From positions 1 through 45,204 of the forward strand of contig JANQPM010000045.1 of the NCBI GenBank assembly GCA_028289465.1: 45,204 nucleotides of DNA, in the 5' to 3' direction. Below are positions 13,866-25,785 of the stretch, piece by piece. A model generated the notes under the pieces. That model did no database searches, was not told where the DNA came from, and worked only from the letters and a program-made list of their open reading frames with translations. The stretch is from Lysobacterales bacterium (GTDB taxonomy: Bacteria; Pseudomonadota; Gammaproteobacteria; Xanthomonadales; SZUA-36). Numbering within the stretch: the first letter of the stretch is position 1; each line of letters begins with the position of its first letter. A program made the position numbers and the translations under genes.

Positions 13866-15002
13866 ATGCTGAAAAGAGGGAAAACCCATCTAACTCTCTG
13901 TATCTTGGGCGCATCTGCGCTGATATACGGCTGCGCAACACCTCAGATGTCAAGTTCGAGTACACCACCCAGCCCGCCGTCTCCAAGCGGTTCGCCAAGT
14001 TCGGCACCGCCATCGCCACCCAGCAGCCCGTCCTCGGGCTCACCGAGTTCCGCGCCGCCAAGTCCAAGCAGCGGCTCTTCAAGCAGTTCGGGCAATCCCA
14101 ACCCAAGTAATCCCAGCTCAGGTAATCCTAGCTCAAGTTCGGGTAGCCCCGGCAGCAGTTCACCCGGCGGCACCAGCCAGCCCGGTGGAACCGGTTCGGC
14201 GGGCGGCGCATCTTCCGATCCGGGGGCCAGCGGAATGCCGGGCGAATCAGCATCGGACTCCTCCGCCAATAGCGGCCAGACCGGCGGTAATGAGACAGAA
14301 TTGGATGTACTGGAACCCGAACCGGTGACCAGCGACAGCGACAACGCGATGGCGGACGCCAGCGATGCCGCCGGTGGATCTTCGGGCGGCGGCGCTGAAG
14401 GCGGCGGCAGCGATGGTGGCGGCGCCGATGGTGGCGGCCAGGAATCCAACGGTGCAATGGCCGATGCCGGCGGTGCGGCCGGCGGCGGCAGTGCCGGTGG
14501 TCAGGGATCGCTGGACGATCGTCTGAATGATTCCGTTCAGATATTCGAAAACGGCATGATGGAGCAGATTATCGTCATTGCGTCCTCCATTCCGGGCGGT
14601 GACTCGGACAGCCAGGGCGGCGACGATGAATTGCAGCCCGGCGAGGCGCCGCAGAACGGCAATGGCACCGCCGGTGGCGGCAGGGGCCTGGTCATCGTCG
14701 AAGGCGATGTATCGCAGCTTCCGTCAGCGGCAGGCAGCGCCCCGGGAGGCGGTGAAGACAATGCCAGCGGGGTTGTCGACCCGACCCAGTCTTCGGACGG
14801 CAGCACCGTGGAAAGCAGCCGTGAAGGCGATAACGCGGTACGCAGAATTCTGCTCGCGAAAATTCCCGACGACGTCGGTGACGGTTCGGACGACGATGTC
14901 GTCGCCCGGCAGATCAGAGAAGCGGCTATCAATGAAGAAGATCCGGCCCTCAGAGAAAAATTGTGGGAGGAATACCGCAATTACAAGAAATCGCTCAATT
15001 AA
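13866..15002 (+). CDS. Ser/Pro/Gly-rich low-complexity lipoprotein
   Basis: A 378-residue predicted lipoprotein: the signal ends in SALIYGC with Cys23. Residues about 28-115 are almost only Ser and Pro, then Ser/Gly/Asn, and a Gly-rich acidic segment follows to about 215. Such a stretch should be disordered and long enough to reach far through the periplasm or outside the cell. An ordered-looking part follows (LDDRLNDSVQIFENGMMEQI, IVIASSIPGG) and the protein ends in a charged helix, REAAINEEDPALREKLWEEY. The helix is a plausible docking element. Family not recognised. First gene of the collinear eight-gene cluster, downstream of the candidate promoter. Confidence 0.75.
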   Translation: MLKRGKTHLTLCILGASALIYGCATPQMSSSSTPPSPPSPSGSPSSAPPSPPSSPSSGSPSSAPPSPSSGSSSSSGNPNPSNPSSGNPSSSSGSPGSSSPGGTSQPGGTGSAGGASSDPGASGMPGESASDSSANSGQTGGNETELDVLEPEPVTSDSDNAMADASDAAGGSSGGGAEGGGSDGGGADGGGQESNGAMADAGGAAGGGSAGGQGSLDDRLNDSVQIFENGMMEQIIVIASSIPGGDSDSQGGDDELQPGEAPQNGNGTAGGGRGLVIVEGDVSQLPSAAGSAPGGGEDNASGVVDPTQSSDGSTVESSREGDNAVRRILLAKIPDDVGDGSDDDVVARQIREAAINEEDPALREKLWEEYRNYKKSLN

Positions 15003-15053: not shown

Positions 15054-16295
15054 ATGACAGGAAAATCCAAAATACTGACCATTACCGCGCTGTTGCTGGT
15101 GGCTGGCAACATCGCATTCGCCGGCACCACGATAAAGAAGGTTAACGCCGTGCCGCTGGAATACGCCACCAGCGAACTGCCTGCCGAGGCGCTGCTGGAT
15201 ATCGGTCTAGGTGTGTTGGACCCAGGCGTTTCCGGTGATCTCGAAGACATCGAAAAACTACAGGAAAAGAATATCTACCCGAAAGTCCGGGAAGCGGAAG
15301 CGCGCTATATCCCCTATATGCTGCGCAACACGATCGAGCAAAGCAATCTCTGGGGTGCGGTACGCATGGTACCGGAGCAGGACCCGCTGAGCGAGGTCTA
15401 CCTCAACGGCCGCATTGTGAAATCCGACGGGACCGAGCTTCAGGTAGAAATCAGCGCCAGAGATGCGACCGGCCGACATTGGTTTACCAAGACTTACGAC
15501 GACATCGCGAGCAAATTCGCCTACCGCGATGACCTGCAGTATCCCGGGGATGTGTTTCAGGACATCTACAACCAGGTTGCCAACGACCTGTACCACTACC
15601 GGCAGAAACTCAACTCCGACCAATTGCACGAAATCCGTACCATCGCCAATTTGCGCTATGCCGCCGCGTTGTCTCCCGATGCGTTCGGCGAGCACCTGAA
15701 AACTGACAAGCGCGGCAATCTGAGAATCAATCGCCTGCCGGCGGATGATGACCCGATGATGCAGCGGGTGCAACGCATTCGGGAGAGCGAATATCTCTTC
15801 ATCGACACGGTGGATCAGCAGTTCGCGCGGTTTTTCCATGAGATGGATCCGTCCTATGACAACTGGCGCCGTTTCAGCTACGAGGAAATCATCGCCGAAC
15901 GGGAACTCAAGCGATCCTCCCGTATGCGCATGCTGGCTGGCGCTGCCGCCGTGGTCGGCGGAGCGGTAACCAGCAGCAAGGCGCGCACCCGAGTCGGCCA
16001 GGTAGTTGGCAATGCGGGCATCTTAGGCGGCGTCAGCGCACTCAGGCAGGGTTATGACGTGCGCAAGCAAGCGAAAATACACCAGACCGCGTTGCAGGAG
16101 CTGGCCGCGTCCTTCGATGCAGAAATCGAACCCATTGTGATTGATGTCCAGGGAGAAGTCGTGAAACTCAACGGCACGCTGGATGCGCAATACAAGGAAT
16201 GGCGTGACATTCTGCGTCAGATCTATGCCGAAGAACTGGGGTTGCCGCAAGGCACATCAGTCAATGAGGAATTCACTAGCCAACTTGAACAGTAG
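15054..16295 (+). CDS. Periplasmic protein of the cluster, unknown function
   Basis: A 413-residue protein with a cleavable signal peptide (ILTITALLLVAGNIAFA, then GTTIKK). The N-terminal half (about 25-190) alternates strands and helices, with motifs YIPYMLRNTIEQSNLWGAVR and EVYLNGRIVKSDGTELQVEI. A Gly/Ala-rich stretch (MLAGAAAVVGGAVTSSKA and VVGNAGILGGVSAL, about 290-335) could be a hydrophobic hairpin. The C-terminal helix includes LQELAASFDAEIEPIVIDVQ. No family recognised. It follows the lipoprotein gene by 51 bp and is followed by a GC hairpin without a T-run (16303-16321), so read-through into the pseudokinase gene is likely. Confidence 0.7.
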   Translation: MTGKSKILTITALLLVAGNIAFAGTTIKKVNAVPLEYATSELPAEALLDIGLGVLDPGVSGDLEDIEKLQEKNIYPKVREAEARYIPYMLRNTIEQSNLWGAVRMVPEQDPLSEVYLNGRIVKSDGTELQVEISARDATGRHWFTKTYDDIASKFAYRDDLQYPGDVFQDIYNQVANDLYHYRQKLNSDQLHEIRTIANLRYAAALSPDAFGEHLKTDKRGNLRINRLPADDDPMMQRVQRIRESEYLFIDTVDQQFARFFHEMDPSYDNWRRFSYEEIIAERELKRSSRMRMLAGAAAVVGGAVTSSKARTRVGQVVGNAGILGGVSALRQGYDVRKQAKIHQTALQELAASFDAEIEPIVIDVQGEVVKLNGTLDAQYKEWRDILRQIYAEELGLPQGTSVNEEFTSQLEQ

Positions 16296-16360
16296 CAATC
16301 CGGGGCCGAAGCGCGGCCCCGTCCGTTCTCATCCCAAACACGAACCTAGTGGAGGTCTGC

Positions 16361-18589
16361 GTGGCTGCAGCAGAGCCGGGCACGCTTAAGCCCGGAAAAA
16401 CCATCGACCGCTACCGGCTGGTACAGAACCTGTCCGGCACCGGCCTGTGGACCAGCTGGCTCGCCACGGATAGCAGCGACGGACAGCAGTATGTGGTCAA
16501 GCTGACCGCAGCCGAGCGGGACGATCGCCGGCTGGTTGGTTATCGCGAACGGCTGGAAACGCTGACAAACCTCGCTCATCCCGCGCTGGCCTTGCCGTCA
16601 AGAGTCTTTTACGATCAGGGTTTCCTGGCCTATGCAAGGTGCTACCAGGAACAGGACGGTCTGTCCGAAGCCCCGGCTGCCGATCTGCACGAACGCATCA
16701 ACCACGCCATTCGCATCGCCGAGGCGCTGCATGTACTGCACCGCAGCGATCTCACGCACGGTGCGGTAAGCAGTGCCAATATTCGTATCGGCGACAACGT
16801 TCGGCTGGTGGATATTCGGCTTGACAGTCACGGCGGCGAGCGCGACGACCTGACCGGTTTTGCCGAAGTGATCACACAATGGCTGCAGGACCTGCCCGAC
16901 GACCACCCCCGCTACGCCGACGGCCTGCTGCAGTTGCCGCCGCGGCTGTCGCAGTTGCAGGCCGCATTCACCAACGCATTGGAAAACCAGGCGCCTCTGC
17001 CGTCCGCACTGCAAATCCGGGACGCACTGGAGGATGCCAAACTGCAGTGGCAGCGCATGCGCACCGAGACAGTCATTCCCACGACCCCTGAGGACCATGA
17101 CCTCGATGCGCTGCCGTGGGCAAACCCGCCCGCCGCCACTGCAGCCACAAGCGCTGCGCCGGCAACCGGCCGTCGCCGGACGGGTGTGATCGCCGGTCTC
17201 GGCCTGTTGCTGGTCGGTGCCCTGCTGGCGGTGGTGGTGTGGCTGCCGAAGCTGGTCGAACAACCGACCGCGCCGACAGTATCCAGCCCGCCCGTCCAGA
17301 AAACGGCTGCCGAAGAACCGGCCGAACCGGAACCGCTGACCGAAGAACAACTCGCGCAATTGTTTAATGAACGGGAAGAGGCGCAGGCGGTACTGGACGA
17401 TTTGATTCAACTTCGTCTGGAACTGGACGCGCGAAAGGTAACGCTGTGGGCAAACAAGGCATTCGAACAGGCGCTGACCGTGAAGGCAGCCGGCGATCAG
17501 GCATTCCGGGATCAGCAGTTCGTCGATGCGAGCCAGCACTACCGGCAGGCGCTGGACCAGATGACTGCGATTCAAGACCGTACGCAGGCCGTCATCGACA
17601 CCGCACTGGCCGATGGCTGGGCCGCGTTTGACCGCGGCGATGCCGAAGCGGCCAAACGCCATTTCGGTCTGGTGCTGGAAATTGATGCGGAACATTCAGA
17701 TGCGCTGAACGGGATGCGGCGTGCAGAAACCCTGGACCAGGTGCTTGAACTGGCCGAGCAGGCACAACGCGCCGAAAAGGAAGAGCTGTGGGCAGACGCG
17801 CGAAGCTACTATCGAGACATCATGAACTTGGATCCGGATACCGACGGCGTTGAAGCTGCGATTGAGCGCCTGACCGGCATTATCAACAACATCGCTTTCC
17901 AGGATCATATGTCGGATGGCTTGTCGGCACTGGATGCGGGGCGGCTGGCAGCGGCCGAAAGCGCATTCCTGGCCGCACGGCGCCTCAAGCCGGGCAGTGC
18001 CGGGCCGTCAGAAGGCCTGCAGGAAATCAACCGCCGGCGCAAGGAATCCGGACTGCAGCAGCACAGATCCCAGATTCTGACCCTGGAGCGCGAAGAGAAC
18101 TGGGCCGAAGCCACGGCCGGTTATCAACGCCTGCTGGACAAGGATCCAAACCTGCAATTCGCCAAAGACGGTATCGTCGAAGCGAGAGAGAGAGCCGCAT
18201 TGGATGCCGCTTTGCAAAACCGGCTGCAGCTCCCCGAACGCTGGTGGAACGCCGAAGGGCGCAACGAGGTCAGCGCCCTGCTGGCCGAAGCCAGGGCGAT
18301 TCGCAGCGGCGGTCCGAAGCTGCAGCGGCAGATCACAGAACTGGACCGCGCGCTGGACCAGGCAAAGCGCCAGGTCAGCCTGTACCTGCAGTCCGACACG
18401 TTATGCGATGTGGTCGTTTACAAAGTCGCCCGGCTGGGTCAGTTCGAAAGTACCGAATTGCAACTGTACCCGGGGCGCTACACCGTGGTCGGCACCCGAG
18501 ACGGCTTTCGCGATGTGCGCAAGGACGTGCTGGTTTCGCCTTCACCCGGCCAGCAGTCCGTGGAAATACGATGCAATGATGAAGTCTGA
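16361..18589 (+). CDS. Membrane pseudokinase with TPR-like and PEGA-like periplasmic part
   Basis: GTG at 16361 follows the GGAGG ribosome site at 16351-16355 with 5-bp spacing; the earlier GTG at 16349 overlaps that site, so the protein is 742 residues. Residues about 15-240 have a Ser/Thr-kinase fold layout: IDRYRLVQNLSGTG in place of the Gly loop, Lys47 in YVVKL, and HGAVSSANIRI (133-143) in place of the HRDLKPxN loop. The catalytic Asp is Ala135, while Asn140 is kept, and DFG is DIR (151-153). It should bind without phosphorylating. One helix (about 275-297) leads to a periplasmic coiled-coil/TPR-like region (about 310-640) and a C-terminal PEGA-like domain (LYLQSDTLCDVVVYKV, YPGRYTVVGTRDGFRDVR). 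Confidence 0.75.
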   Translation: MAAAEPGTLKPGKTIDRYRLVQNLSGTGLWTSWLATDSSDGQQYVVKLTAAERDDRRLVGYRERLETLTNLAHPALALPSRVFYDQGFLAYARCYQEQDGLSEAPAADLHERINHAIRIAEALHVLHRSDLTHGAVSSANIRIGDNVRLVDIRLDSHGGERDDLTGFAEVITQWLQDLPDDHPRYADGLLQLPPRLSQLQAAFTNALENQAPLPSALQIRDALEDAKLQWQRMRTETVIPTTPEDHDLDALPWANPPAATAATSAAPATGRRRTGVIAGLGLLLVGALLAVVVWLPKLVEQPTAPTVSSPPVQKTAAEEPAEPEPLTEEQLAQLFNEREEAQAVLDDLIQLRLELDARKVTLWANKAFEQALTVKAAGDQAFRDQQFVDASQHYRQALDQMTAIQDRTQAVIDTALADGWAAFDRGDAEAAKRHFGLVLEIDAEHSDALNGMRRAETLDQVLELAEQAQRAEKEELWADARSYYRDIMNLDPDTDGVEAAIERLTGIINNIAFQDHMSDGLSALDAGRLAAAESAFLAARRLKPGSAGPSEGLQEINRRRKESGLQQHRSQILTLEREENWAEATAGYQRLLDKDPNLQFAKDGIVEARERAALDAALQNRLQLPERWWNAEGRNEVSALLAEARAIRSGGPKLQRQITELDRALDQAKRQVSLYLQSDTLCDVVVYKVARLGQFESTELQLYPGRYTVVGTRDGFRDVRKDVLVSPSPGQQSVEIRCNDEV

Positions 18590-18633
18590 AACGATGCGGT
18601 GGCCAATCATCGGTGAATGACCAAAGGCAGCGA

Positions 18634-20733
18634 ATGACAGAACAGCCACAAGAATACACGGCGCCATCCAGCAGTACCTCGTCGGCCAACCCGGTTATTA
18701 CACCGGTTGCGTTCGAACCGCGCTCGGGCGCTCACCGCCGCCGCAGCCCGCAGCGCTGGCTTACTTTCGGCGCGTTGGGATTGCTGCTGCTGCTGGGCAC
18801 CGCCGCGGTGTATCTGTTCACCGGGCAATCGGTGCTGATCGAATTCGATCCGAGAGCGGACAATATTGAAGTCGACGGCGCGCTGATCACTTTCAAGCTG
18901 GGCGATCGCTGGCTGCTGCATTCAGGGGAATATACGGTCGGCGCGGAAAAAGCCGGTTACCACCCGTTCGAAAATACGATTACGGTCACCGATGCCGGCG
19001 AGCAGGAGTTTCTGTTCAGCCTGGACAAACTGCCCGGTTATCTTTTCGTCAGCACCGATCCCGAGACAACCGCCGAGATTCGGGTCGACGGTCAGAGCCT
19101 GGGGGCCGCTCCGCTGCAAAACCACGAGCTGCCCACCGGCAGCTACCAGCTCGAAATTCGAGCCGAGCGCTATCAGCCCTACGCTGCGGATATCGACATC
19201 GAAGGGCTCGGCAAAACGCATGAAATCGTCGCCCAACTGGAACCCGGCTGGTCCGAGGTCACGTTGAATTCCAACCCGGAAGGCGCGCAGCTATGGGTGG
19301 CTGACGAAAATCTCGGCACTACGCCGCTGACTGCCGAGGTGCTGATGGGTTCGCGCACGCTGGAATTGCGTCTGCCCGGTTACAAAACCTGGACAACGGA
19401 ACTCCTGGTATCCGACAACCAGCCGCGGCTGTTGCCGTCGGTGAATCTGGAAAAAGCCGACAATCTGGTCCGGCTCAGCAGCCGGCCAAGCCAGGCCAGC
19501 GTGTCAGTGAACGGCGACTACCGCGGCCAGACACCGCTGGAACTGGAACTACCGCCCGGCCGTGAATACCAGTTCCGATTCAGCAAGGCGGGATACCAGT
19601 CGGCGCGCCGCAGCTTGCTGGTCGAAGAAGCCAGCGATGCCCGCCTGAGCGTCAATCTGACGCCGATTCTGGGCCAGGTGCTGGTCAACGGCAGCCCGGC
19701 GGATGCAGATGTCTATATCGAAGGCGTGCGGCGCGGCAACTTGAACCAGACTTACGAACTGCCGGCCCGGCCACACCGCATTGAAGTCCGCAAACCGGGC
19801 TATCTGAGCTATTCCACATCGCTGACCCCGAACCCCGATCTCGCGCAACGCATCGACGTCAAGCTGACCAGCGAAGAAGCCGCCCGACAGGCCAGAACCC
19901 CGAGCCTGGTTACTGCGGCTAACGGGTATGCAATGCAGTTGATTCGGCCATCCGGACGCATTGTGCTGGGCAGCCCGCGACGGGAACAGGGCAGGCAGGC
20001 CAACGAAGTACAGCGCCAGGTCGAGCTGCGGCGGGCGTTTTATATCGGCGTGCGCGAAATCAGCAACGCGCAGATCAAAGCCTACCGCACCAGTCACGAT
20101 TCCGGTGTGGCCGGCGAGCAGACACTGTCGCTGGATGAACAGCCGGCGGTGCGGATATCCTGGGATGACGCCGCACGATTTGCAAACTGGCTCAGCGGTA
20201 TGGACGGCCTGCCCTTCGCCTATCAGGAAAAAGACGGTGTGATGCAGGCTGTACAGCCGATGACCACCGGCTACCGGCTGCCGACAGAAGCAGAATGGGT
20301 GCTGGCAGCCCGTTACGAGGGCGACACCAACAACCGGGCGGCCAAACGCTATCCCTGGGGTAGTGCACTGCCGCCGCCTTCCGGGGCCGGTAATTTCGCC
20401 GGTTCGGAGAGTACCGATCTGGTGCAGCGGGTGATCAGCAACTACCGGGACGGCCAGCCGGCATCCGCACCGGTCGGGCAATTTAACAGCAATAATCTCG
20501 GTCTTTATGATCTGGGTGGCAATGTGCGAGAGTGGATTCATGATTACTACAGCGTCGGCGGTGTCAGTGGCGTGCCGGTCGACCCGCTGGGCCCGAAAAA
20601 CGGCAGCGCACACGTGGTGCGTGGATCCAGCTGGCGCAGCGGCGCAATCACCGATCTGAGGCTGGCCTGGCGCGGCCAGGGCAGCGACGGGCGTGACGAT
20701 ATCGGCTTCCGGCTGGTCCGGTACGCCGAATGA
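18634..20733 (+). CDS. Membrane PEGA-repeat protein with SUMF1-type domain lacking cysteine
   Basis: ATG at 18634 has AAAGG 6-7 bp upstream; a GTG at 18613 is an alternative. The protein is about 699 residues: a short Ser-rich cytoplasmic tail, one helix (WLTFGALGLLLLLGTAAVYL, about 43-62), then about five PEGA-type repeats. Examples are IRVDGQSLGAAPL, LWVADENLGTTPL and VSVNGDYRGQTPL, each ending in a GY-like turn. The C-terminal ~230 residues are a formylglycine-generating-enzyme (SUMF1) fold: GYRLPTEAEWVLAARYEG, LYDLGGNVREWIHDYY, VVRGSSWRSG, DIGFRLVR. The catalytic cysteine pair is absent and the whole protein has no cysteine, so it is probably a ligand- or protein-binding domain exposed to the periplasm. 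Confidence 0.85.
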   Translation: MTEQPQEYTAPSSSTSSANPVITPVAFEPRSGAHRRRSPQRWLTFGALGLLLLLGTAAVYLFTGQSVLIEFDPRADNIEVDGALITFKLGDRWLLHSGEYTVGAEKAGYHPFENTITVTDAGEQEFLFSLDKLPGYLFVSTDPETTAEIRVDGQSLGAAPLQNHELPTGSYQLEIRAERYQPYAADIDIEGLGKTHEIVAQLEPGWSEVTLNSNPEGAQLWVADENLGTTPLTAEVLMGSRTLELRLPGYKTWTTELLVSDNQPRLLPSVNLEKADNLVRLSSRPSQASVSVNGDYRGQTPLELELPPGREYQFRFSKAGYQSARRSLLVEEASDARLSVNLTPILGQVLVNGSPADADVYIEGVRRGNLNQTYELPARPHRIEVRKPGYLSYSTSLTPNPDLAQRIDVKLTSEEAARQARTPSLVTAANGYAMQLIRPSGRIVLGSPRREQGRQANEVQRQVELRRAFYIGVREISNAQIKAYRTSHDSGVAGEQTLSLDEQPAVRISWDDAARFANWLSGMDGLPFAYQEKDGVMQAVQPMTTGYRLPTEAEWVLAARYEGDTNNRAAKRYPWGSALPPPSGAGNFAGSESTDLVQRVISNYRDGQPASAPVGQFNSNNLGLYDLGGNVREWIHDYYSVGGVSGVPVDPLGPKNGSAHVVRGSSWRSGAITDLRLAWRGQGSDGRDDIGFRLVRYAE

Positions 20734-20742
20734 GGGAATACG

Positions 20743-21045
20743 ATGAACACTAGATATCTGCTGGTACTGTTGGCTTTATTCGGCACCGTGGCGGCACAGG
20801 AAAACCCGCCGACGGATGAGCAGAATACCGAAACCGCTGACCAGGCACCGCCAGCACCTGTGGAAGAAGATGGGCTGGAAAGCCTGACTGGCGAGGAAAC
20901 CGATGCGGAAGTGACAGCCGGAGAAGTGACCACCGGAGAAGCAACCGCCGGAAATGAACAGCAGCGTCAGGGCAACCTGGAACGCTTTAAGCCGTCAGAA
21001 GAAATTTCGCTGGACCGGTCAGTGGCGTTTCCTAACGACATTTAA
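20743..21045 (+). CDS. Small secreted acidic protein of the cluster
   Basis: A 100-residue protein with signal peptide (YLLVLLALFGTVAAQ). The mature part is acidic and Thr/Glu/Ala-rich (disordered), with a distinctive C-terminal end FKPSEEISLDRSVAFPNDI. The GAGGGA ribosome site lies close before its ATG. It follows the PEGA-SUMF1 gene by 9 bp and is then separated from the channel gene by the repeat block. I recognise no family. Its conserved-looking tail suggests a short docking peptide, which is inference. Confidence 0.65.
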   Translation: MNTRYLLVLLALFGTVAAQENPPTDEQNTETADQAPPAPVEEDGLESLTGEETDAEVTAGEVTTGEATAGNEQQRQGNLERFKPSEEISLDRSVAFPNDI

Positions 21046-21050
21046 TGGGA

Positions 21051-21375
21051 GTGGTTTTTGGCGCTTCTTACGCCTGCGGCGTAAACCGCACCAAAAACCA
21101 CGGCATAAATTTGCGCTGGCGCGCAGCGGAGTTTATGAGGTGAAGCCGTTGAGAGATGGTGGCAGTGGTTTGAGGTTGACGGGCGCTTCTTACGCCTGCG
21201 ATGTAAACCGCACCAAGAACCACGGCATAAATTTGCGCTGGCGCGCAGCGGAGTTTTATGAGGTGAAACCGTTGAGAGACGGTGGCAGTGGTTTGAGGTT
21301 GACGGGCGCTTCTTACGCCTGCGGTGTAAACCGCACCAAAAACCACCGCGTAAATTTACGCGCAGCGGAGACATG
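21051..21375 (+). repeat. 2.6-copy tandem repeat of about 122 bp with nested hairpins
   Basis: Units start at 21061, 21183 and 21306 (122 and 123 bp, then a partial copy of about 65 bp). Copies differ by a few bases (for example GCGGC, GCGAT and GCGGT in the same spot). The first copy begins with an 11-bp perfect stem: GTGGTTTTTGG (21051-21061) with CCAAAAACCAC (21091-21101). It encloses TTACGCC-TGC-GGCGTAA (21068-21084). The block fills most of the gap between the small secreted protein gene and the channel gene. Open frames through it repeat with the DNA and are not credible genes. It may be a structured mRNA element or the footprint of a dispersed repeat family. Confidence 0.85.
21347..21362. 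promoter_or_regulatory. 16-bp perfect palindrome upstream of the channel gene
   Basis: CGCGTAAATTTACGCG, in the diverged last partial repeat, 90 bp before the 21452 start. Its symmetry suits a dimeric repressor or activator site, but no regulator gene is nearby. The 21376-21451 stretch contains no clear promoter. Confidence 0.35.
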
Positions 21376-21451: not shown

Positions 21452-22279
21452 ATGGCTGCAACTATGGAAACACACTCGGCGCTGAGGAAAACTTTTCCGT
21501 TTGAGTTTTTCTATCAGATATTTGCGCTGATCGTCTCGTTCATCGCCGTGCATACGGTATATGTCACGCTGGTACGGCCGTCCGCCAGCCGGCTGCTGCA
21601 GGAACAGGCGGTGAAGATTGCGGAGGATCCGACCTTTGTGCCGGAGCGCTCGGTCTTTGTGCTGATCAAGGACTTCGAGCAGGAGGCATGCTTCGTACTG
21701 CTGTTCTGGGCCATTGCAATCATGGCCTACAAAGCCGTACAGGCCTATCGGGAACGCAGCCTGCTCGAGCGGGACCTGATTCCGCTTAGCGAAGGCATCA
21801 GCATTCTTCCCGAGGACAGCCGGGAGTATTCCCGGCCGATTCAGGCATTGGGCACAAAAGAACGTGACTATCTACTGCCGCGCACCCTGCTGACTTCCCT
21901 GCACCGGTTCCGTTCGACGCGGGATATCCAAAGCGTCGCATCCACTGCCCGCGAGATGAGCGAATCGGAATCGGAAAGGCTGGAGTCCGAGCTGTCGATG
22001 GTGCGCTATATCGCATGGGCGATTCCATCCATTGGATTTATCGGCACGGTAAGAGGCATCGGCGCGGCGCTGGCTCAGGCGCATAAAGCCGTCGAGGGCG
22101 ATATCACCGGCGTTACCTCCAACCTGGGGGTTGCGTTTAACTCCACCTTCATTGCACTGGTGCTGTCTATTATTCTGATGTTTCTGCTGCATCAGCTTCA
22201 GTTAATGCAAGAACGCCTGGTACTGGACAATCAGGAGTACGTGGAAGAACACCTGATAGCCAAGTTGCGCGAAGACTAG
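21452..22279 (+). CDS. MotA/TolQ/ExbB-type proton channel subunit
   Basis: A 275-residue inner-membrane protein. Helices are at about 16-41, 77-97, 186-206 and 222-247, with a cytoplasmic region between the second and third. The family signature GFIGTVRGIGAALAQ (195-209) and the last helix FNSTFIALVLSIILMFLLHQL mark the MotA/TolQ/ExbB superfamily, whose pentamers use the proton gradient to move a dimeric partner helix. ATG at 21452 has only a weak ribosome site. The two vWA proteins downstream have ExbD-like first helices and are the likely partners. Canonical tonB and exbD genes are absent nearby. Confidence 0.9.
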   Translation: MAATMETHSALRKTFPFEFFYQIFALIVSFIAVHTVYVTLVRPSASRLLQEQAVKIAEDPTFVPERSVFVLIKDFEQEACFVLLFWAIAIMAYKAVQAYRERSLLERDLIPLSEGISILPEDSREYSRPIQALGTKERDYLLPRTLLTSLHRFRSTRDIQSVASTAREMSESESERLESELSMVRYIAWAIPSIGFIGTVRGIGAALAQAHKAVEGDITGVTSNLGVAFNSTFIALVLSIILMFLLHQLQLMQERLVLDNQEYVEEHLIAKLRED

Positions 22280-22288
22280 TGCGCTCAT

Positions 22289-22327
22289 TTCAATGAACCC
22301 GCTTCAGTAACCCTGCTTCAATGACCC
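22289..22327 (+). repeat. Threefold microrepeat at the 22321 start codon
   Basis: TTCAATGAACCC, TTCAGTAACCC and TTCAATGACCC occur in series about 14 bp apart, the last containing the start codon of the 22321 gene. Probably a local slippage duplication; it leaves no strong ribosome site. Confidence 0.4.
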
Positions 22328-23661
22328 TCATACTGGACATTAATGACACTGGACTGCGGCTGTTCCGCGGCCAGGATCTGCTGCAGGTCAGTCCGGGGTT
22401 TGTCACCGTGCTGAACAAGACCGCCGCAACCGGGCATGAAGCGCAGCAGCAGGCCAGGCGACATCCAATTCAGACCGAATCCCGTTTCTGGGATCAATTC
22501 TCTCAGGACCGGCTGGCACAACCCAATCGCCTGGCGCTGACACATGCCGATCTGGCCTATCACCATCTGAATGCGCTGTCGGCGGATATCGGCGATGCAC
22601 CGGTGGCGCTGGCCGTGCCGGGCGACTGGTCCACCGAACAGCTCGGTTTGATCGCCGGCATATGCCAGGCGCTGAACTGGAACCTCGCAGCCATGGTCGA
22701 TCAGGCAATCGCGGCCGCTGACCGGCCCTACCCCGGCCGGCAACTGTTTTATCTTGATCTGCATCTGCATCGCGCGGTGTTAACCGCTTTGGAACAGGGC
22801 CAGCAGTTGATTCGACAACAGGTCGTCAGCAGCCGCGAGATGGGCCTGACACGGCTGCGGGAAGCGTGCGCCGAAGCGATTACCCGGCTGTTCATTCAGC
22901 GTACCCGATTTGATCCGCTGCACGACGCCGAGGTCGAGCAGCAACTGCATGACAAGCTGGAAACCTGGCTGGACGAAGTTCAGCATAGCGATTCGCTGGA
23001 ACTGGAGCTGACTCAGCACGACAACCGCTTTACCACCCGACTCAACCTGGACCAGGTGATTAACGCGGCCAGACCGCATTACCGGCGCCTGGCGCGTTTC
23101 TTAAACGCCAATCTGCCGGCCGACCGGCCCTGTACGCTGCTGGTGTCGCAGCGCATGGCCCGCCTGCCGGGCATGATGGCCCGTCTGACCGCTCTGCCGC
23201 AGACCGATGTGGTCATCGCGGCCGAAGACGCGGTAGCGGTCGGTGCGGCCGAAGCAATTGCCAATGCCGGTGCCGACGGCCCGATCACGCATATACTGCA
23301 CCGCCCATGGTTGCAGGATACCGATCTCGAGGCGCACCAAAGCCGCCTGCGGGCCTTTCACCGTGAGCAGCCGACCCATATTCTGTACCGCAATCGAGCC
23401 TACCCGCTGAGCCGACAAGGGCTGTGGATCGGCAATGGCAGCGCGGACATCTCGCTGGGCGAAGGCATTGCCGACGTCGACGAGCGCCATTGCCGCTTGA
23501 GCCTGAACGCCGGTCAGGCGGTGATTACTGACGCCAGCGACGGCAAGACCCGCATCAACCGCCAGCCGTTGGAAGGCGAACTCGAAGTGGGGGTCGGAGA
23601 TCGCATCGGTATCGGCCGGCCGCAAGTGGAATTGCTGCTGATTCGAGTGGAAGGAAGCTAG
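22321..23661 (+). CDS. Actin/Hsp70-like ATPase-fold protein with C-terminal FHA-like domain
   Basis: This 446-residue cytoplasmic protein starts LILDINDTGLRLFRG, which resembles the first phosphate loop of the actin/Hsp70/PilM fold in weakened form. It continues with a second-phosphate-loop-like segment (LFYLDLHLHRAVLTAL, about 140-155) and AVPGDWSTEQLGLIAGICQALN, typical of the fold. From about 355 the sequence YPLSRQGLWIGNGSADISLG, DERHCRLSLNAGQAVITDAS and TRINRQPLEGE looks like an FHA domain, which binds phosphothreonine peptides. Nucleotide-binding residues look degenerate, so ATPase activity is uncertain. No strong ribosome site. It sits 41 bp after the channel gene and 3 bp before the first vWA gene. 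Confidence 0.65.
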   Translation: MTLILDINDTGLRLFRGQDLLQVSPGFVTVLNKTAATGHEAQQQARRHPIQTESRFWDQFSQDRLAQPNRLALTHADLAYHHLNALSADIGDAPVALAVPGDWSTEQLGLIAGICQALNWNLAAMVDQAIAAADRPYPGRQLFYLDLHLHRAVLTALEQGQQLIRQQVVSSREMGLTRLREACAEAITRLFIQRTRFDPLHDAEVEQQLHDKLETWLDEVQHSDSLELELTQHDNRFTTRLNLDQVINAARPHYRRLARFLNANLPADRPCTLLVSQRMARLPGMMARLTALPQTDVVIAAEDAVAVGAAEAIANAGADGPITHILHRPWLQDTDLEAHQSRLRAFHREQPTHILYRNRAYPLSRQGLWIGNGSADISLGEGIADVDERHCRLSLNAGQAVITDASDGKTRINRQPLEGELEVGVGDRIGIGRPQVELLLIRVEGS

Positions 23662-23664
23662 GCC

Positions 23665-24756
23665 GTGGCCCGCAGAAAGCGCGAAACCAATGTCTACAGT
23701 ATGTCCTTTCTGGACATCATGGCCTGCGGTTTCGGCGCGATCATTCTGTTCTTTGTAATCATCCAGCATGCGACCGAAGACCGCACCGACGATCTGACGG
23801 CCGACCTGTCCGGCGAGGTCAACCGGCTGGAAACCGAAGTGGCGCTGGAAGAGCTGAACCGGGCCAAACTGCAACAATCCATCGATGAAATTGAACAGGA
23901 AATCGTCACCTCGCAGGCAGAAGCCGACCGCATGCTTGAAGAAGTGACCGACAGCCAGGACGCACTGACCGAACAGGAACAGGAAACCGCCGCGCGGCGC
24001 GAACACTTCAATCAACTGGTGACCGATATCCAGGCCATCGAGGAGCGGCTGAAGGAAATACAGGCCGAGCAGGAACTGGGCGGCGAGGACGTGCGCAACT
24101 TTTACGGCAGCGGCGATCGGCAGTACCTGACCGGCGTCAACGTCGGCGGCCAGCGCATAATGATACTGCTGGACGCGTCCGCCTCGATGCTGGATGAGAC
24201 CATCGTCAATATCATTCGCCGGCGGCACCTGCCGGACCGGCAGAAGCGCCGGGCCGACAAATGGCAGCGAGCCCTGCTGACCGTGGAGTGGATCACCACG
24301 CAGTTCCCGGAAACCTCCGAATTTCAGATTTACACCTTCAACACCCGCGCCGACCCGGTGTTGAAAGATACGCGCGGCGAGTGGCTCAAGGTCGATCAGG
24401 GCCGCCTGCTGGACAACGCAGTCGACGCACTGCGCGAACGCGTGCCCGAAAACGGCACCCGCCTGCATGCGGTGGTTGAAGCAATCAACGACATGAATCC
24501 GCTGCCGGATAATATTTTCCTGATCATCGACAGCCTGCCGACCCAGGGCGAATCGCCGCCACGCGGGCCGGGCACGGTCGACAGCCGGCGCCGGCAGCGT
24601 TTTTTTGACGACGCCGTGCGGGAGCTGCCCCGGGGCGTGCCGATCAATGTCGTACTGTTTCCGATGGAAGGCGATCCGCTGGCCTCCAGCGAGTACTGGA
24701 AACTGGCGGTCCGTACCGGCGGTTCGTTTATGAGCCCGTCCAAGGACTGGCCGTAA
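23665..24756 (+). CDS. vWA protein with ExbD-like N-terminal helix (first copy)
   Basis: A 363-residue protein with GTG start, GGAAGGAAG ribosome site and almost no gap to the preceding gene. Residues 13-35 (MSFLDIMACGFGAIILFFVI) form one helix with Asp17 at the position of the essential ExbD aspartate (TPFIDVMLV in E. coli ExbD). Residues about 40-135 are a Glu-rich coiled coil. The vWA domain follows (about 160-350), with the metal-site motifs DASAS (170-174), a Thr in GTRLHAVVEAI and the Asp in LIIDSLPTQG. No signal peptide other than the helix, so the vWA head is in the periplasm. Proposed channel stator; metal-ligand binding is inferred. Confidence 0.8.
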   Translation: MARRKRETNVYSMSFLDIMACGFGAIILFFVIIQHATEDRTDDLTADLSGEVNRLETEVALEELNRAKLQQSIDEIEQEIVTSQAEADRMLEEVTDSQDALTEQEQETAARREHFNQLVTDIQAIEERLKEIQAEQELGGEDVRNFYGSGDRQYLTGVNVGGQRIMILLDASASMLDETIVNIIRRRHLPDRQKRRADKWQRALLTVEWITTQFPETSEFQIYTFNTRADPVLKDTRGEWLKVDQGRLLDNAVDALRERVPENGTRLHAVVEAINDMNPLPDNIFLIIDSLPTQGESPPRGPGTVDSRRRQRFFDDAVRELPRGVPINVVLFPMEGDPLASSEYWKLAVRTGGSFMSPSKDWP

Positions 24757-24786
24757 ACAGCGGATCAAACGAGGTGAGTTAATGCG

Positions 24787-25785
24787 GTGAAAAAGAAAAA
24801 ACGCACAGTAGAAACAACCAGCCTATCGTTCCTGGACGCGATAGCCTGTGGTTTCGGCGCGATTATTCTGTTGCTGGTCATCGTCAAAACCGCGCAGCCG
24901 ATGATTCTGGAGCAGACGCGCGTAGACCTGGAAGGCATCGTCGCACAGTTGCAGCAGCAATTGGTCAAAATCCGCGGTGAAACCACGGTATTGGACCGTA
25001 CCCTGAACACCGTCGAACAGGAACAGCTGACGCTGGAAGAACGCGTGGCCCGTATGCGTCGCCTGCTGGAACAACTACGCGGGCAATTCGATTCCTCCGG
25101 TGACGATAACCGGGCGATCGCGGCACTGGAAAAACAACTGGAGGCGGCGCGTCAGGAACTGAACGAGGCGCAGCAGCGCTTCGAATACAAGAAACCGTTT
25201 GAAGACACCACGGTCGGCGGCATTCCGGTCGACAGCGAATACATCATCTTCATCATCGACACCTCCGGCAGCATGTATAACTTTGCCTGGGATCTGGTAC
25301 TGAAGAAAATCGAAGAGACGCTGGACGTACACCCGACCGTGCTCGGTATCCAGGTACTAAACGACATGGGTGAATATATGTTCCCGCGCTTTGCCAACCG
25401 CTGGATACCCGATACGCCGGCGCGCCGGCAGGCCATCATTCAGCGCTTAAGAACCTGGAATGCGTTTTCCAACTCCAGCCCGGTGGAAGGCATCAACAAG
25501 GCCATCAGTACCTTCTATGCCGCGGACAAGAAAATCAGCCTGTACGTGTTCGGCGACGAATTCACCGGCCATTCCATCGACGAAGTGGTCGGCACCGTGG
25601 ATAAGATCAACCGCGTTACCGCCCGTGGCGAGCGCCTGGTGCGGATTCATGCCGTCGGCTTTCCGGTGCAGTTCATGCGCCCGGCGCCGCAGCAAACCAC
25701 CGGCATCCGCTTCGCAACGCTGATGCGCATCCTCAGTCAGCGTAACGGCGGCACCTTTGTCGGGCTGAATTCGCACCGGCCTTAG
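24787..25785 (+). CDS. vWA protein with ExbD-like N-terminal helix (second copy)
   Basis: A 332-residue protein with GTG start preceded by GAGGTGA, 9 bp away; the earlier ATG at 24782 runs into a stop. The layout matches the first copy: helix 13-35 (LSFLDAIACGFGAIILLLVI) with Asp17, coiled coil about 40-135, and a vWA domain with DTSGS (158-162). The second metal-site Thr position looks like Ser (FSNSSPVEGINKA); the last Asp may be in YVFGDEFTG. Two paralogous stators of the same channel suggest a heterodimer, since ExbBD and MotAB complexes use a dimer in a pentamer. Last gene of the cluster. No terminator seen downstream; 25786-25866 is empty. Confidence 0.8.
   Translation: MKKKKRTVETTSLSFLDAIACGFGAIILLLVIVKTAQPMILEQTRVDLEGIVAQLQQQLVKIRGETTVLDRTLNTVEQEQLTLEERVARMRRLLEQLRGQFDSSGDDNRAIAALEKQLEAARQELNEAQQRFEYKKPFEDTTVGGIPVDSEYIIFIIDTSGSMYNFAWDLVLKKIEETLDVHPTVLGIQVLNDMGEYMFPRFANRWIPDTPARRQAIIQRLRTWNAFSNSSPVEGINKAISTFYAADKKISLYVFGDEFTGHSIDEVVGTVDKINRVTARGERLVRIHAVGFPVQFMRPAPQQTTGIRFATLMRILSQRNGGTFVGLNSHRP

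Follow-up and report, generated by a model that had tools for sequence, protein, structure and literature searches.

The window considered here, a stretch of 45,204 nucleotides comprising positions 1 to 45,204 of contig JANQPM010000045.1 from a Lysobacterales bacterium (assembly GCA_028289465.1), encodes two adjacent vWA proteins, each of which carries an aspartate in its membrane helix where ExbD has its essential Asp. A first-pass annotation drew attention to this aspartate and suggested that the two proteins form a heterodimeric stator inside an ExbB-like pentamer. The locus therefore raises the question of whether these proteins are the axle of a proton-driven motor and, if so, what such a motor acts on. 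The genes referred to below are numbered in order:

13866 to 15002, + strand: g1, predicted lipoprotein, rich in Ser, Gly and Pro, C-terminal ~60 residues conserved (lipobox-like ALIYGC, by eye)
15054 to 16295, + strand: g2, exported protein with an N-terminal hydrophobic segment (residues 7-25), present in 72/97 loci and in the other class described below
16349 to 18589, + strand: g3, degenerate cytoplasmic kinase domain, transmembrane segment 279-297 and periplasmic TPR region (TPR and weak kinase-like matches)
18613 to 20733, + strand: g4, transmembrane segment 50-68, at least four PEGA repeats and a Cys-free FGE-like domain at the C-terminus (PEGA 1.3e-48, FGE-sulfatase 1.3e-37)
20743 to 21045, + strand: g5, small exported acidic protein, poorly conserved
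21452 to 22279, + strand: g6, MotA/TolQ/ExbB-like channel subunit with Thr199 and Thr232 (PF01618, 7.4e-15)
22321 to 23661, + strand: g7, cytoplasmic protein with a C-terminal FHA domain (1.3e-5) and a possible HSP70/actin-like N-terminal part
23665 to 24756, + strand: g8, vWA1, transmembrane helix with Asp17, coiled coil and vWA domain (DASAS)
24787 to 25785, + strand: g9, vWA2, transmembrane helix with Asp17, coiled coil and vWA domain (DTSGS)

Architecture of vWA1 and vWA2

Both reading frames lie at these coordinates, and residue counting located Asp17 in the transmembrane segment of each protein. The N-termini, with the aspartate numbered from the sequence, read MARRKRETNVYSMSFLD17IMACGFGAI in vWA1 (363 aa) and MKKKKRTVETTSLSFLD17AIACGFGAI in vWA2 (332 aa). 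Each protein has a single hydrophobic segment (residues 15-33) preceded by a basic N-terminus, from which the N-terminus is predicted to lie inside and the C-terminus in the periplasm. AF2 models of the single chains (mean pLDDT 82.7 for vWA1 with 53 sequences and 81.7 for vWA2 with 49 sequences) have one continuous helix that includes the membrane segment and goes on as the coiled coil (residues 11-107 of vWA1 and 15-103 of vWA2) and a vWA domain that is mostly above 90 pLDDT, while confidence is low over approximately residues 1-20, that is, around Asp17. The segment had been described as the only helix of each protein, which is correct in that it is the sole transmembrane helix but not in the wider sense, as the models contain, besides the long helix, another short one and those that belong to the vWA fold.

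Pfam placed vWA1 slightly below the vWA cut-off and gave no vWA match for vWA2, so that a structure-based test of the fold was needed for the latter. In Foldseek searches the models of vWA1 and vWA2 each matched many vWA domains with a probability of 1.00, and together with the AF2 models these matches establish the layout of helix, coiled coil and vWA domain that had been read from the sequences. MIDAS-type residues are conserved in vWA1 (D170, S172, S174, T265 and D289) and in vWA2 (D158, S160, S162, S230 and D257), in agreement with the earlier assignment of vWA heads from the DASAS and DTSGS motifs. Searches by sequence for solved structures related to vWA1, vWA2 or g6 returned mostly coiled-coil matches or nothing. 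The profile for the ExbD periplasmic domain (PF02472) matched neither vWA protein, and inspection of the two helices showed no SHLS motor-binding motif. The conserved Cys21 was considered as a possible lipoprotein cysteine, an assignment that was rejected because a hydrophobic helix follows it and diverged relatives lose the Cys and keep the Asp.

Conservation of Asp17 and age of the pair

Asp17 is invariant in two alignments of 18 homologues, one for vWA1 and one for vWA2. Across a larger set of 97 loci, which includes at least three contigs that occur twice, Asp17 is retained by 97/97 vWA1 and 96/96 vWA2 homologues; the vWA1 count is biased for loci L041-L120, since the pattern used in the contig scan contained FLD for vWA1, while the vWA1 loci from the genome search, all of the vWA2 proteins and the loci from the other class were not selected on this residue. 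This conservation, which the first-pass annotation had left to be checked and which extends to diverged relatives, excludes a chance occurrence of the aspartate.

In the other proteobacterial class (family f210), vWA1 reads FN[VI]AFLDIMASGLGAI and vWA2 reads ISFLDIISSAFAAV; the Cys and Gly of the helices are changed and the Asp is unchanged. The vWA1 gene of this class has an apparent CTG start that seems to be conserved (L163:12570-12640, L164 and L165), and gene finding limited to ATG, GTG and TTG begins the protein at or after the Asp, which would hide the feature.

The first-pass annotation regarded the two copies as clearly different in sequence, and they are indeed ancient paralogues. 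In a tree, vWA1 and vWA2 fall into separate groups with good support, one on either side of a branch, from which it follows that the pair is old and that the gene was duplicated before the family spread. The two genes are adjacent in 96/97 loci. The retention of an old paralogue pair side by side favours a heterodimer over homodimers.

The channel subunit g6

An ExbB-like pentamer was part of the original proposal, and g6, with its pair of threonines, is an ExbB-like channel gene beside the vWA pair in a locus that has no ExbD or TolR. From its hydrophobicity, g6 appears to have three to four membrane segments. Its T199 and T232 do not vary in an alignment of 18 members and are conserved in a wider set; they lie 33 residues apart, a spacing shared by the ExbB proteins of this genome, and their equivalents in E. 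coli are T148 and T181. The genome has seven PF01618 genes and five PF02472 (ExbD/TolR) genes, and a genome profile search found none of the latter on the contig of the window and all five on other contigs. With the exception of contig C62, the contigs with ExbD/TolR genes also carry their own MotA/ExbB genes.

Between g5 and g6 the window contains a tandem array (21060-21361; 2.5 copies of a 123-bp unit, 93% matches) which occurs nowhere else in the genome and matches no Rfam family. The array may influence how the motor genes are expressed.

A conserved operon

The gene order g1-g2-g3-g4-(g5)-g6-(g7)-vWA1-vWA2 holds in 97 loci with zero exceptions, and g2, g3, g4, g6, vWA1 and vWA2 occur together in 71 of them; many of the remaining loci are incomplete because of contig ends. 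Homologues of g1 open the operon in 64/97 loci and in the other class, where a seven-gene core that lacks g7 recurs in the same order (family f210). No Pfam family matched g2 above the cut-off. vWA1 is present in about 9% of the sampled genomes of the gammaproteobacterial class (32/369), and loci also occur in MAGs labelled Acidobacteriota, Gemmatimonadetes and Desulfatiglandales. Cultured bacteria with the operon include Haliea, Microbulbifer, Pseudohalioglobus and Chromatocurvus. Plasmid and phage searches gave no matches to the system.

The operon seems to be extended in many gammaproteobacteria, including Halieaceae, by a TPR protein upstream of g1, whose C-terminus is TonB-C-like by eye, and, on the downstream side of vWA2, by an M48 peptidase and two putative lipoproteins (examples are L066, L069, L086, L103 and L114); these extension genes were not seen beside the operon of the window. 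Two loci (L074 and L093) come from MAG records titled Klebsiella pneumoniae. These labels are probably wrong, the operon being found otherwise in marine-type gammaproteobacteria.

The PEGA-FGE protein g4

The solved structures closest to the FGE domain of g4 are PorK/GldK (3e-15), within a large FGE superfamily, and g4 matches the NCBIfam GldK model at 3.5e-23 with 82.6 bits, where the cut-off is 350. A role for g4 as a sulfatase-activating enzyme was considered and rejected, since the window protein contains no Cys and the FGE region has at most one Cys in 83/84 proteins. The FGE-like fold of PorK serves as a docking hub without enzyme activity in a ring that is contacted by PorM and driven by the PorLM proton motor (PMC12421860), so that an FGE-fold partner next to a 5:2 motor is a pattern that has been seen before. 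No operon protein matched the NCBIfam models for GldL, GldM or GldN (PorL/M/N), and the searches made found no GldN/PorN-like or Sov-like gene in the operon. The resemblance of g4 to PorK is thus an analogy and does not indicate membership of the type IX secretion system (T9SS).

The kinase and FHA proteins g3 and g7

In the g3 protein of the window, HRD is replaced by HGA and DFG is absent. The kinase domain is likewise degenerate in eleven other loci and absent in 57. It is intact in four loci (L043, L050, L051 and L077), all of which have an intact FHA motif in g7; Pfam Pkinase matched g3 of L043 (E 3.5e-39) and L077 (8.6e-30), and Pfam confirmed the FHA domain in L077. The g7 profile matches FHA structures and, weakly, the nucleotide-binding domain of HSP70 (SSB1, 0.0045), and the gene is missing in 14/91 loci, in some clades. 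The g3 kinase domain and the g7 FHA motif tend to be retained together (Fisher p 4e-4, from regex-based calls and with phylogeny ignored). Outside the four loci, kinase and FHA are mostly decayed or lost, and in the organism of the window this input is degenerate.

A diverged variant

Three loci from the same bacterial family (L037-L039, approximately 9.5-17.5 kb) contain a vWA pair that stands apart from both vWA1 and vWA2 in the tree. Both helices read S-A-[VI]-D-L-F-A-S, with the neighbouring Cys21 and Gly22 lost and the Asp retained. The second vWA protein lacks the MIDAS pattern and has DMNKF, DLNRF or DMNAY in place of DxSxS, which indicates that the two heads need not be equivalent. These loci also encode a Gly-rich exported protein and an intact-looking kinase fused to an FGE domain, with an FHA protein (two hydrophobic segments in L038) upstream of the fusion. 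Two of the three, L038 and L039, were seen to encode a TolQ-like protein as well.

Published vWA partners of TolQ-like channels

The first-pass annotation knew of no described case of vWA domains as stator heads, a claim that does not stand, as vWA proteins with pore helices have already been reported as partners of TolQ-like pentamers (Mol Biol Evol 2025; PMC12204202). That study describes vWA proteins which are tethered by a transmembrane helix and encoded with tolQ homologues where tolR/exbD is absent. Most of them come in heterologous pairs, a transpore helix (TPH) carries a conserved Asp that binds protons, and AF3 models put the aspartates within the threonine ring of the pentamer. A first vWA family of the same study docks on the outside of the pentamer in the manner of TonB/TolA (PMC12204202). 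By their shared sequence features, vWA1, vWA2 and g6 are placed in the TPH-vWA/TolQ-like kind predicted in 2025.

Proposed mechanism and alternatives

It is probable that g6 and the vWA pair constitute a proton-driven 5:2 motor that turns a heterodimer against a periplasmic PEGA-FGE partner. The three proteins would assemble in the manner of MotA-MotB, ExbB-ExbD or TolQ-TolR, with five g6 subunits encircling a pair of pore helices to which vWA1 and vWA2 contribute one each, and each Asp17 would be protonated and deprotonated as it faces the ring of g6 threonines. Proton flow would turn or rock the pair, the coiled coils would transmit this motion to the periplasm, and the vWA heads may hold partners through putative MIDAS-type metal sites. 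The likeliest partners would be products of the same operon, namely the inner-membrane PEGA-FGE protein, the TPR protein and the lipoprotein(s); with the latter among them, the force would extend as far as the outer membrane. Where a lineage has both the g3 kinase and the g7 FHA domain intact, phosphorylation may gate the motor. We infer the pore placement, the heterodimer, the metal binding, the partners and the purpose from the features described above.

To our knowledge, all well-studied MotB/ExbD/TolR axles are homodimers, and vWA1 and vWA2 could likewise each dimerise with themselves in g6 pentamers of their own, so that there would be two kinds of motor, differing in cargo. Sequence conservation fits such an arrangement equally well, but a single g6 gene serves both vWA proteins in the loci seen, and the genes are paired in nearly all loci, in the second class and again in the diverged variant, which makes two homodimeric motors rather unlikely. 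In a sensor or channel gate that is not a motor, the vWA heads and the PEGA-FGE protein would sense the envelope and g6 would signal to the kinase and FHA proteins. The co-occurrence of intact kinase and FHA in some relatives and the kinase-FGE fusion of the variant loci are in line with this scheme, which is nonetheless improbable, given that most loci, the window included, lack kinase and FHA or have degenerate forms of them, while the motor genes persist and the Asp and Thr residues of the ion path are invariant.

Binding of the vWA helices to the outside of the pentamer, with another ExbD/TolR protein as the axle, has a precedent in the docking vWA family (PMC12204202), and five ExbD/TolR genes elsewhere in the genome could supply the axle. 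That the Asp is invariant and the SHLS motif missing from both helices argues against it, as does the want of an ExbD gene in the locus and the presence of MotA/ExbB genes on the ExbD contigs other than C62, and such side binding is accordingly quite improbable. The weak ZorA matches of g6 (4e-5) bring to mind phage defence of the Zorya type, in which a ZorA-ZorB proton channel acts with effectors; ZorB-, ZorC- or ZorD-like proteins are absent, phage and plasmid matches are lacking, and a long conserved chromosomal operon without nucleases is hardly compatible with this explanation, to which we attach very little weight.

The proton-driven heterodimeric motor thus remains the preferred reading, and a motor family that was predicted and unstudied now has a defined gene set, of which the remainder of the operon is the most informative on what the motor acts on. 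With conserved partners and cultured hosts, the purpose of vWA-headed proton motors becomes testable through deletion of the genes and pull-down assays. If true, a heterodimeric axle that occurs in nature would provide a handle on two-fold axles inside five-fold rings.

Comparison with known systems

Zorya ZorA-ZorB shares a distant PF01618 relationship with the system of the window, which differs in having neither the peptidoglycan-binding ZorB nor ZorC/ZorD, none of which was detected in a PADLOC scan. ExbB-ExbD and TolQ-TolR have in common with it the PF01618 channel, the Asp at the start of the pore helix and the Thr spacing of 33, but here the axle has vWA heads on a coiled coil in place of the ExbD/TolR periplasmic domain and is encoded by two different genes, and TonB/TolA was not found in the locus. 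The T9SS (PorKLMN/GldKLMN) resembles it as a proton-motor operon with a cysteine-poor FGE-like protein. In contrast to PorK/GldK, an outer-membrane lipoprotein, g4 is a PEGA protein of the inner membrane; the axle is vWA here and PorM in the T9SS, and PorN and Sov were not found. It is conceivable, if doubtful, that the system adds to Tol/Ton and the type IX motor a third class of machines that work across the envelope and are powered by protons. In this class vWA1 and vWA2 would be an obligate heterodimer, serving as the axle of an ExbB-like pentamer and driving a PorK-like FGE hub that is held by a PEGA protein of the inner membrane; the kinase/FHA switch would be optional and lost in most lineages.

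When compared by described features, the TPH-vWA proteins (PMC12204202; Idiomarina loihiensis family) revealed no clear difference from the system of the window. Both have a heterologous vWA gene pair beside a tolQ/exbB-like gene, a conserved pore-helix Asp, a conserved channel Thr ring and no SHLS motif, and neither has a tolR, exbD or motB gene in the locus. The text of that study makes no relevant mention of kinase, PEGA or FHA, so that the operon context was apparently not discussed. What is new relative to it is the conserved operon, the PorK-like FGE partner and the kinase/FHA pattern.
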